A DNA stretch of 64,000 bases from Anaerolineales bacterium (GTDB lineage Bacteria > Chloroflexota > Anaerolineae > Anaerolineales > UBA4823). Every line of letters starts with the position of its first letter. Positions within the stretch are counted from its first letter, which is position 1. The notes below the pieces were generated by a model. That model had not been told where the DNA came from. It saw only the letters and a program-made list of their open reading frames with translations, and did no database searches. The translations under genes were made by a program, and so were the position numbers. The stretch covers positions 1-64,000 of the forward strand of contig JAFGQI010000171.1 in the NCBI GenBank assembly GCA_016935755.1, in the 5' to 3' direction. Positions 43,850 to 50,304 of this stretch are shown piece by piece.

Positions 43850-46621
43850 TTATACCACAATGCTGACCAGCTTGCCTGGCACCAGGATGACTTTCTTGGG
43901 CGGCTGGCCGGCCAGCGCTTTCTGCACCGCTTCGCTGGCCAGGGCGGCAGTCTTGGCTTCCTGCTCGGAGATATCCGCCGGCACCAGGATGCGGTCGCGC
44001 AGCTTGCCGTTCACCTGCACCACCAGGGTGATCTGCTCCTCGGCGGCAGCCTGCTCATCCACGGCAGGCCAGGGCCGGGTGTGGATGGAATAAGGCTTGC
44101 CCAGCCGCTTCCACAGTTCTTCGGCGACATGCGGGGTGACCGGCGCCATCATGCGCAGGTAGATATCCAGCGCTTCCTGCCATTCCGGCGTCCCAGCCGC
44201 GCCCAGCTCGCGGGCTTTGTACATCTCGTTCATCAGCTCCATCAGGCTGGAGACGATGGTGTTGAACTCGAAGGTCTCAAAGTCGTGGGTGATGCGGCGT
44301 AGGGTCTGGTGCAGCTTGCGGCGCAGGCCGCGCAGCACATCAGGTTCAGGATGGCCGCGCTGGGGCTGCTCGGTGAACAGCGTCCAGACGCGGCGGATCC
44401 AGCGCACCGTGCCTTCGATGCCGCTGCTGCTCCATGGCGCGCCCATATCCCAACGGGCAAAGAACATCAGGTAAGCGCGCACCGTATCGGCGCCATATGA
44501 TCTGACCAGGTCATCCGGCGAGATCACATTGCCGTGGCTCTTGGACATCTTCTCCGAGTCTTCGCCCAGCACCATGCCCTGGTTGCGCAGCTGGGTCATC
44601 GGCTCCGGGCCTTTCATGATGCCCATATCCCGCCCGGCTTTATGGAAGAAGCGGGTGTAGATCAGATGCATGGTGGCATGTTCGATGCCGCCGGTGTAGG
44701 TGTCCACTGGCATCCAATAATCGTACTCGCGCGGGTCGAACGGGCCCTGGTCGTAATCGGGGCTGAGGTAGCGCAGGTGATACCAGGAGGAGCACATGAA
44801 GGTGTCCATGGTGTCGGTCTCGCGCTCAGCAGGTTTGCCGCACAGCGGGCAGGTGGTGTACTTCCAGGTCGGATGCAGCTTGAGCGGGCTTTCGCCGGTC
44901 GGGCGCCACTCGACATCATCGGGCAGCAGCACCGGCAGCTGCTCGTCCGGCACAGCGACCGCGCCATGCTCGGGGCAGTACACAATCGGGATCGGCGCGC
45001 CCCAGTAGCGCTGGCGGCTGATCAGCCAGTCCCGCAGGCGGTAGTTGATCGCCAGCTTGCCGGCGCCGCGGCTTTCCAGCCAGGCGGTGACCTGCTGCTT
45101 GGCGGTATCCCCCGGCGTGCCAGAAAACTCATTAGAATGAATCATCATCCCATAGCCAGAATGATACAGCGCATCGCGGTAAAAATGGCAGCCCCACAGC
45201 ATCTCCATCAAGGTGCGCGCCGCCTGAACACTCGGCTGCAGCTCCTTGACGCGCCTCAAAATGTGCTGCTCGCTTTCCAGCGAATCCCATACAGCCATTT
45301 CATCCGAGAAGATGAAGACCCAGCGCGTGCCGACAACCTCATTCCAGCCGCCAGGGCGCAAGAACGATCTCGCCAGCTCGATATAGCGATCGACTTTCTC
45401 CGGCGGGATGGTGATATACCAGCCGCCTTTATGCTCTTCATAAGCCATCCCCTCGGCGCTGAGCACATCGGCGAAGCCATCTTTCATACTGCCTGCCACA
45501 GCGTAAGACCTGGTCAAGCCGTCCGGGCGGTCGATCACCGGCAGGATGGGCAGGCCGAACTTCAGGGCGAACTCGAAATCGCGCTCGTCGTGGGCCGGCA
45601 CCGCCATGATGGCCCCCGTGCCGTAAGTCATCAGCACGTAATCGGCGATCCAGATCGGGATGCGCTGCTGGTTGACCGGGTTGATGGCGTACCCGCCGGT
45701 GAACACACCGGTCTTTTCCTTGTCGGCAGCCTCGCGCTGGATGTCGCTCTGGCGGGCAGCCTGGGCAGTGTAAGCGTCCACAGCCCGCTTCTGCTGTGGG
45801 GTGGTGATTTTCCCCACCAGGGGATGCTCAGGCGAGAGCACCATAAAGGTCGCCCCCCACAGGGTATCCGGGCGGGTGGTGAAGACTTCCAGGGGATCGC
45901 CCTGTTCGGTGTGGAAAACCACCGCGGCGCCTTCGGAGCGGTCAATCCAGTTGGTCTGCAGAGTCTGGACGCGCTCGGGCCAATCCAGGTGGGAAAAATC
46001 CAGCAGTTCATCGGCATAGCTGGTGGTCTTGAAGAACCACTGCTCCAGGTTCTTCTTGATCACCGGCGTCTCGCAGCGCTCGCAGTGGCGGTCATCCCCC
46101 CAGACCTGCTCGCGCGCCAGGGTGGTGTTGCAGTTCGGGCACCAGTCCACCGGCGAGAGCTTGCGGTAAGCCAGCCCGTGTTTATAGAGCTGGCTGAAGA
46201 ACCACTGCGACCAGCGGTAATATTTTGGGTCAGCCGAAACCGCCTCCCGGCGCCAATCGAACATGGCGCCCATGCTCTTGAGCTGCTGGCGCATGCGCTC
46301 GATATTGGCGTACGTCCACTGCTTGGGGTGGATGCCGCGCTTGATGGCGGCGTTCTCGGCGGGCAGGCCAAAAGCGTCGAAGCCCATCGGGAAAAGCACA
46401 TTGTAGCCGCGCATGCGCATGAAGCGGGCGCGGGCATCCGAGGGGGTCATGGCGTACCAATGACCGATATGCAGGTCTCCGGAGGGATAGGGCAGCATGG
46501 TCAGGGCGTAGTGCTTGGGCTGGGCCGGGTCGATATCGGCGTGATACAGCCGGTCAGCCTGCCATTTTTTCTGCCATCTGGGTTCAATTTCAGCCGGGTT
46601 GTAGATGTTGTGATCTGTCAT
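43850..46621 (-). CDS. leuS: Leucyl-tRNA synthetase, copy 1
   Basis: 923 residues. The HIGH motif is in LPYPSGDLHIGHWYAMTP (HIGH at 51-54), and KMSKS near residue 692 in SEKMSKSHGNVISPDD. A zinc knuckle CPNC...CERC lies near 170-195. The CP1 editing domain is present, with TTRPDTLWGATFMVLSPEH and GTGAIMAVPAHDERDFEF, whose Asp is needed for editing. It charges tRNA-Leu in the cytoplasm. It differs from copy 2 in carrying the standard KMSKS and in extra length within the catalytic domain, around residues 480-520. It starts one base after the methyltransferase stop. Confidence 0.95.
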   Translation of the reverse strand: MTDHNIYNPAEIEPRWQKKWQADRLYHADIDPAQPKHYALTMLPYPSGDLHIGHWYAMTPSDARARFMRMRGYNVLFPMGFDAFGLPAENAAIKRGIHPKQWTYANIERMRQQLKSMGAMFDWRREAVSADPKYYRWSQWFFSQLYKHGLAYRKLSPVDWCPNCNTTLAREQVWGDDRHCERCETPVIKKNLEQWFFKTTSYADELLDFSHLDWPERVQTLQTNWIDRSEGAAVVFHTEQGDPLEVFTTRPDTLWGATFMVLSPEHPLVGKITTPQQKRAVDAYTAQAARQSDIQREAADKEKTGVFTGGYAINPVNQQRIPIWIADYVLMTYGTGAIMAVPAHDERDFEFALKFGLPILPVIDRPDGLTRSYAVAGSMKDGFADVLSAEGMAYEEHKGGWYITIPPEKVDRYIELARSFLRPGGWNEVVGTRWVFIFSDEMAVWDSLESEQHILRRVKELQPSVQAARTLMEMLWGCHFYRDALYHSGYGMMIHSNEFSGTPGDTAKQQVTAWLESRGAGKLAINYRLRDWLISRQRYWGAPIPIVYCPEHGAVAVPDEQLPVLLPDDVEWRPTGESPLKLHPTWKYTTCPLCGKPAERETDTMDTFMCSSWYHLRYLSPDYDQGPFDPREYDYWMPVDTYTGGIEHATMHLIYTRFFHKAGRDMGIMKGPEPMTQLRNQGMVLGEDSEKMSKSHGNVISPDDLVRSYGADTVRAYLMFFARWDMGAPWSSSGIEGTVRWIRRVWTLFTEQPQRGHPEPDVLRGLRRKLHQTLRRITHDFETFEFNTIVSSLMELMNEMYKARELGAAGTPEWQEALDIYLRMMAPVTPHVAEELWKRLGKPYSIHTRPWPAVDEQAAAEEQITLVVQVNGKLRDRILVPADISEQEAKTAALASEAVQKALAGQPPKKVILVPGKLVSIVV

Positions 46622-50304: not shown

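Follow-up and report, generated by a model that had tools for sequence, protein, structure and literature searches.

Two leucyl-tRNA synthetases of separate origin in one operon behind a leucine T-box in an Anaerolineales bacterium

Introduction

Within the window analysed here, a stretch of 64,000 nucleotides from a Chloroflexota (Anaerolineae) bacterium, there are two genes for leucyl-tRNA synthetase (LeuRS), both on the minus strand. An earlier note on this DNA had described them as two different synthetases in one operon, neither of which looked dead, and had suggested inhibitor resistance, split use of isoacceptors or a task outside translation for the second. The questions raised by the locus are where the additional enzyme came from, how the pair is controlled and what the pair might do. 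Duplicated aminoacyl-tRNA synthetases are common but few are characterised, and those that are differ in expression, substrate specificity, drug susceptibility or thermal stability (PMC4787780). In kind, the present case is ordinary, since duplicated synthetases (PMC4787780) and paired divergent LeuRS (PMC3436685) are known. Its form is unusual, in that a xenologous LeuRS stands between the native leuS T-box and the native copy. Our literature search turned up no description of a LeuRS pair in Chloroflexota. New beyond the earlier note are the T-box, the probable insertion of the second gene into the native leuS operon and the apparent exchange of editing domains.

Two complete synthetase genes in one operon

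The features of the operon and its flanks, all on the minus strand, are as follows.

50683-50756, minus: tRNA-Ala(GGC), found by ARAGORN, a conserved upstream marker of the leuS locus
47836-50304, minus: LeuRS2, an 822-residue open reading frame of the LeuRS-II clade, with RMSKS
47444-47827, minus: 127-residue Cys-rich protein, function unassigned, 8 bp 3' of LeuRS2; rare
46623-47429, minus: class I SAM methyltransferase, exact start uncertain, 58% identical to the copy in the relative G170
43850-46621, minus: LeuRS1, a 923-residue open reading frame, the native Anaerolineales LeuRS, with KMSKS
43037-43828, minus: PIG-L/LmbE-type deacetylase, downstream operon gene
42048-43040, minus: ABC transporter ATPase (DrrA-like), downstream operon gene
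41293-42048, minus: ABC-2 permease, downstream operon gene
38593-38982, minus: RidA, a synteny marker of the native leuS locus (creatininase-RidA-GT2 in G170, RidA-GT2 in G146)

Read along the minus strand, the order is tRNA-Ala(GGC), T-box, LeuRS2, Cys-rich gene, methyltransferase, LeuRS1, PIG-L, ABC ATPase and ABC-2 permease, and the protein genes from LeuRS2 to the permease are spaced by about 20 bp or less, or overlap. LeuRS2 starts at an ATG at 50304 with a Shine-Dalgarno sequence, GGAGGT, just 5' of it. The two LeuRS match the NCBIfam model leuS_bact (TIGR00396) over its full length with 969 and 975 bits, both more than 400 bits above the curated cut-off of 548.4 bits, and the editing domain PF13603 is found in each. 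With the tight spacing and the T-box leader ahead, these matches bear out the description of two different LeuRS in one operon. The two proteins are 52% identical in the N-terminal 364 residues and 43% identical in the C-terminal 439. A whole-genome search found no third LeuRS; the weaker matches all fell under the cut-off, as is expected of other class I synthetases. The genome is 87.5% complete and 7.45% contaminated, and the two LeuRS genes share a contig whose synteny is native. The codon usage of LeuRS2 is close to that of the neighbouring genes (GC3 0.77, RSCU r 0.89) and is ameliorated.

The Cys-rich protein has no Pfam match, and its sole convincing homologue among 301 Chloroflexota genomes (44%) is in G186. 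That genome also carries both LeuRS types, but has the Cys-rich homologue on another contig. Co-inheritance of the Cys-rich gene with LeuRS-II was considered and set aside, as no such gene stands beside other LeuRS-II.

A leucine T-box leader ahead of both genes

T-box leaders sense aminoacylation: uncharged tRNA stabilises an antiterminator, which leads to read-through. The elements of the leader are listed below.

50337-50612, minus: T-box leader (RF00230), leucine-specific, an end-to-end cmscan match
50504-50506, minus: specifier codon CUC (Leu), after a conserved GAA in Stem I, read from the leader sequence and alignment
50320-50352, minus: intrinsic terminator of the T-box, a hairpin and T run, from sequence and fold

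The cmscan match scores 56.2 bits (E 1.8e-11), under the Rfam gathering score of 93, and the leaders of relatives score 49-94 bits against the same model. The leader holds an exact GGGTGGTACCGCGG and an exact AGGGTGGTACCGCG, together with the terminator and its T run; GAACTCGCC is invariant across seven aligned leaders (the window and six relatives). The T-box sequence, a Stem I with its specifier codon and an antiterminator/terminator alternative are thus all found. The CUC specifier has a cognate tRNA-Leu(GAG) gene in the genome, one of four ordinary-looking tRNA-Leu genes; a tRNA-Leu(UAG) was not found in the draft genome, probably because of its incompleteness.

In Bacillus subtilis, thrZ and tyrZ are duplicated synthetases regulated by T-boxes, with the two genes at separate loci. 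The second synthetase of the window would likewise be under tRNA-sensing control, but here both genes are in one operon. Leucine T-boxes with a CUC specifier and a terminator are also found before leuS in the survey of ileS, leuS and valS leaders (RF00230; PMC2494555), whereas the leader described here precedes two xenologous leuS genes in a single operon.

Separate origins of the two synthetases

In a tree of 196 LeuRS, LeuRS1 stands among the Anaerolineales LeuRS as sister to the G170 enzyme (79% identity), and LeuRS2 falls in a separate clade. A tree on core columns (617 columns, C20 model) places LeuRS2 in a clade of 32 rows with SH-aLRT support of 96; this clade, defined in this analysis on those columns, is called LeuRS-II here. 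The nearest sampled relative of LeuRS2, in G190, is about 60-61% identical. Forcing LeuRS1 and LeuRS2 together as sisters is rejected (AU p = 2.6e-5), so that a recent tandem duplication is rejected also, and near-identical duplicates, which the earlier note had named as an outcome that would refute its reading, are not what the tree gives. An origin of LeuRS2 from agnB2 or a plasmid was likewise discarded, as the plasmid matches are all below 60% identity.

In several Chloroflexota families, such as f79 (genomes 95-98% complete), no LeuRS other than LeuRS-II was found, which implies that the LeuRS-II lineage is able to carry translation alone. As a second LeuRS it occurs in five Anaerolineae families, f33, f129, f29, f4 and the window's own f1, and in f33 both types persist across genera. 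A single leuS, assumed at first to be the rule in bacteria, is indeed normal, but the pair recurs: two are present in at least 26 of the 319 Anaerolineae genomes that gave a match, a lower bound since some second copies are only contig-end fragments.

One of the closest parallels is provided by the haloarchaeal LeuRS-B' and LeuRS-B'' (Andam et al. 2012, PMC3436685). These are likewise two divergent bacterial-type LeuRS per genome with a scattered distribution and a history of horizontal transfer, but the hosts are archaeal and side-by-side insertion behind a T-box is not described in the available excerpts of that paper.

Probable insertion into the native leuS locus

The same locus in relatives provides the frame into which LeuRS2 appears to have been placed. 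The same-family genome G170 has tRNA-Ala(CGC), tRNA-Ala(GGC), T-box, methyltransferase and LeuRS1, followed by creatininase, RidA and GT2, so the methyltransferase is directly upstream of LeuRS1 there too. G133 (own family) has two tRNA-Ala genes, T-box, one unrelated gene and LeuRS1, and in G146 the tRNA-Ala pair and the T-box precede LeuRS1, and RidA and GT2 follow it. The order tRNA-Ala(GGC) then T-box is common to G170, G146, G133, G132 and G121. G170 and G133 therefore share an arrangement of tRNA-Ala, T-box, one variable gene and LeuRS1, without LeuRS2, and the window corresponds to this with LeuRS2 and the Cys-rich gene added between T-box and methyltransferase. LeuRS2 is absent from every other sampled genome of family f1. 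The simplest account is that LeuRS2 was inserted downstream of the native leuS switch and so came under native tRNA-sensing control.

Other genomes with LeuRS-II are arranged differently. G190 has LeuRS-II alone behind a tRNA-Ala/T-box leader; in G060 and G002 LeuRS-I keeps the T-box and LeuRS-II lies elsewhere, with no T-box detected before it, which makes the window's arrangement unusual among those examined.

Upstream, positions 51061-55771 of the window hold a DtxR/MntR-type regulator and an apparent ABC metal-transporter cluster between two tRNA-Ala genes. As these tRNA genes are near each other in relatives and separated here, a second insertion at the locus is suggested.

Catalytic and editing residues

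By mapping to the Escherichia coli enzyme, both LeuRS keep HxGH, D80, T247/T248/T252, Y330, D342, R344 and D345, as well as E532, H533, H537 and K622, the second KMSKS lysine; the CP1 editing-domain equivalents of T252, D342, R344 and D345 are thus present in LeuRS1 and LeuRS2. At the level of sequence, neither enzyme has lost any of the catalytic and editing residues that were checked, in keeping with the earlier impression that neither is dead; a loss of catalytic residues in one copy, the other outcome that would have refuted the earlier note, is thus not seen. The reported difference between KMSKS and RMSKS is real, although RMSKS retains the second lysine and an arginine occupies that position in 31 of the 196 LeuRS. 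The zinc sites differ as had been noted, the zinc-1 motif being Cys4 in LeuRS1 and Cys3 with a nearby His in LeuRS2. A zinc-sparing paralogue is not favoured, most metal-ligand cysteines being retained in both.

LeuRS2 carries the LeuRS-II signature LDFFPYPSG, with F at the M40 position, as in 24 of the 196 LeuRS. Among 136 near-invariant columns of this set, it departs at four and LeuRS1 at one, and its E90, H175, A196 and Q498 are unique in the set; some of its unusual residues are in the CP1 hairpin region. H175 falls at the position of E169 in the E. coli and Neisseria gonorrhoeae enzymes, and E90 at that of E. coli residue 84 (the L84 position). In N. gonorrhoeae LeuRS, E169G lowers the efficiency of leucine activation 24-fold, and the helix M84-N93 moves together with the E169 hairpin (PMC9424281). 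With His at the E169 site, LeuRS2 may be slower or altered. Several other LeuRS of the set have as many or more unique residues, so these substitutions are no proof of loss of function.

An editing domain with its own history

The difference in length, 923 against 822 residues, is mostly accounted for by an insert of about 106 residues in the editing domain of LeuRS1, after AHDERD.

45161-45517, minus: insert in the LeuRS1 editing (CP1) domain, 119 residues as queried and a net of about 106 residues longer than LeuRS2

The insert is present in 31 of the 196 rows, and its distribution over the tree calls for nine or more gains or losses. On editing columns, with the insert columns excluded, the insert-bearing editing domains cluster (support 98/96), and the corresponding cores are scattered over lineages. 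As the constraint groups were picked after the trees had been viewed, the following p-values are somewhat optimistic: a single clade of insert-bearing sequences on the core is rejected (p 1e-49); on editing columns, rejection meets the grouping of G132 with G374, which are sisters on the core (p 2.7e-5), of the window LeuRS1 with G170 (p 0.019) and of the LeuRS-II clade (AU p 0.0024); and one clade of ten Anaerolineales LeuRS-I editing domains is not rejected (p 0.138), so that not every exchange is proven. The LeuRS2 editing domain is unplaced in this tree. In G123 an N-terminal core resembling LeuRS-II is joined to an insert-bearing editing domain of LeuRS-I; this mosaic-looking frame is at L151:848-4075 (1076 codons).

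From the conflict between editing and core trees we infer that the editing domain has recombined as a module, and the Chloroflexota LeuRS editing domain appears to have been exchanged with a history separate from that of the enzyme core. If so, a proofreading domain is able to pass from one synthetase to another independently of the catalytic core, which bears on the evolution of translation fidelity and on inhibitors that target this domain.

The insert is predicted to fold as a compact alpha/beta domain (pLDDT 86.6, pTM 0.83), and the rest of the LeuRS1 editing domain is normal in the model, matching solved LeuRS editing domains (E 1e-22). Assignment to a known domain was rejected, the window insert having no Pfam match and other members only weak, inconsistent ones. 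Sequence searches of the PDB gave nothing significant, and Foldseek gave a weak, non-significant likeness to PII-like and ACT-like folds (best E 0.024, query TM at most 0.33). Nor does the insert behave as a mobile standalone gene, as every match is within a long LeuRS-sized frame.

What the pair may do

The gene order, the T-box with its CUC specifier, the separate phylogenetic origins and the intact active and editing sites are shown by the analysis. They are best explained, with a probability of roughly 0.55, by LeuRS2 being a complete xenologous LeuRS inserted behind the native T-box, a spare that is co-induced with LeuRS1 and acts on the same tRNA-Leu pool. Uncharged tRNA-Leu(GAG) would bind the leader and stabilise the antiterminator; the whole operon would then be transcribed, so that a lack of leucine or a block of leucylation would induce both LeuRS. 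The two would charge one tRNA-Leu pool, with LeuRS2 acting as a spare or as another housekeeping enzyme whose kinetics differ. A shortage of leucine-charged tRNA thus probably turns on both at once; an internal promoter for LeuRS1, which would count against shared T-box control, is possible, as is drug resistance or specialisation of LeuRS2.

The locus may also represent a stage at which one leuS is being replaced in place by another. When a horizontally transferred synthetase replaces a resident one, this is as a rule inferred in retrospect; here the old and the new leuS stand next to each other behind the old switch, so that replacement, co-regulation and a possible insensitivity to drugs can be tested directly. 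A purely neutral version, in which LeuRS2 is a horizontally acquired duplicate caught in mid-replacement at the native locus, with no selected role and one copy doomed, is unlikely. Its absence from the other sampled f1 genomes would suit such a transition, as would G190, where LeuRS-II stands alone behind the leader, and G060 and G002, where the T-box has stayed with LeuRS-I; but the persistence of the pair across f33 genera speaks for a benefit at least in that family, and the codon usage of LeuRS2 is already ameliorated.

We are more doubtful still of a reading in which the editing domain, with or without the 106-residue domain, is a cassette swapped in cells with two LeuRS and the pair provides two T-box-switched modes of leucylation. 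LeuRS1 would be the insert-bearing proofreading variant, and LeuRS2 would have altered activation through its His at E169 and Glu at L84.

We rate a little lower again the proposal that LeuRS2 is an inhibitor-insensitive enzyme. The T-box would induce it when an inhibitor raises uncharged tRNA-Leu, as blocked charging should; auxiliary drug-insensitive synthetases are known (cited in PMC4787780), with agnB2 and auxiliary TrpRS and MetRS for comparison, and the ABC exporter in the operon and the odd residues in the CP1 hairpin region would fit. Against this, the genes surrounding the operon include no biosynthetic cluster, for a toxin or otherwise, LeuRS2 retains canonical editing residues, and LeuRS-II in two other genomes has no detected T-box. 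agnB2, the agrocin 84-insensitive LeuRS of plasmid pAgK84 (PDB 5AH5), is also an extra divergent LeuRS beside another, and shares with LeuRS2 the absence of the leucine-specific domain insertion. It differs in being a plasmid toxin-immunity gene and is 40.8% identical to LeuRS2. Its zinc-1 cysteines are missing, where LeuRS2 retains three of the four, and it reads KQSKS in place of the RMSKS of LeuRS2.

A changed function for LeuRS2, through a split of tRNA-Leu isoacceptors, an altered amino-acid range or a non-translational task, is improbable. The four singular substitutions at near-invariant sites could be taken to point that way, but HxGH, the second KMSKS lysine, D80 and the editing residues are retained. 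Of the roles proposed in the earlier note, division of isoacceptors is disfavoured by the ordinary tRNA-Leu set and the one CUC T-box that heads both LeuRS, and a non-translational role by the near-complete genomes in which LeuRS-II is the only LeuRS found. That the assembly or binning of this draft genome, with its 7.45% contamination, joined the leuS genes of two organisms is very improbable, given one contig, one tightly spaced operon and synteny with G170 on both flanks.

tRNA genes within leuS leaders of relatives

In three relatives a tRNA-Ala gene lies within the leuS T-box leader itself, between Stem I and the antiterminator.

G190, L110:1664-1739: tRNA-Ala(GGC) in the leader, T-box at 1484-1787
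G111, L126:4568-4642: tRNA-Ala(GGC) in the leader, T-box at 4522-4837
G060, L315:8174-8246: tRNA in the leader (tRNA by Rfam), T-box at 8018-8297

We know of no report of a tRNA gene inside a leuS T-box leader, and processing of such a leader would set free a tRNA. G111 also has a group I intron match (54 bits) at L126:5232-5420, near a tRNA-Gly and the leuS T-box.
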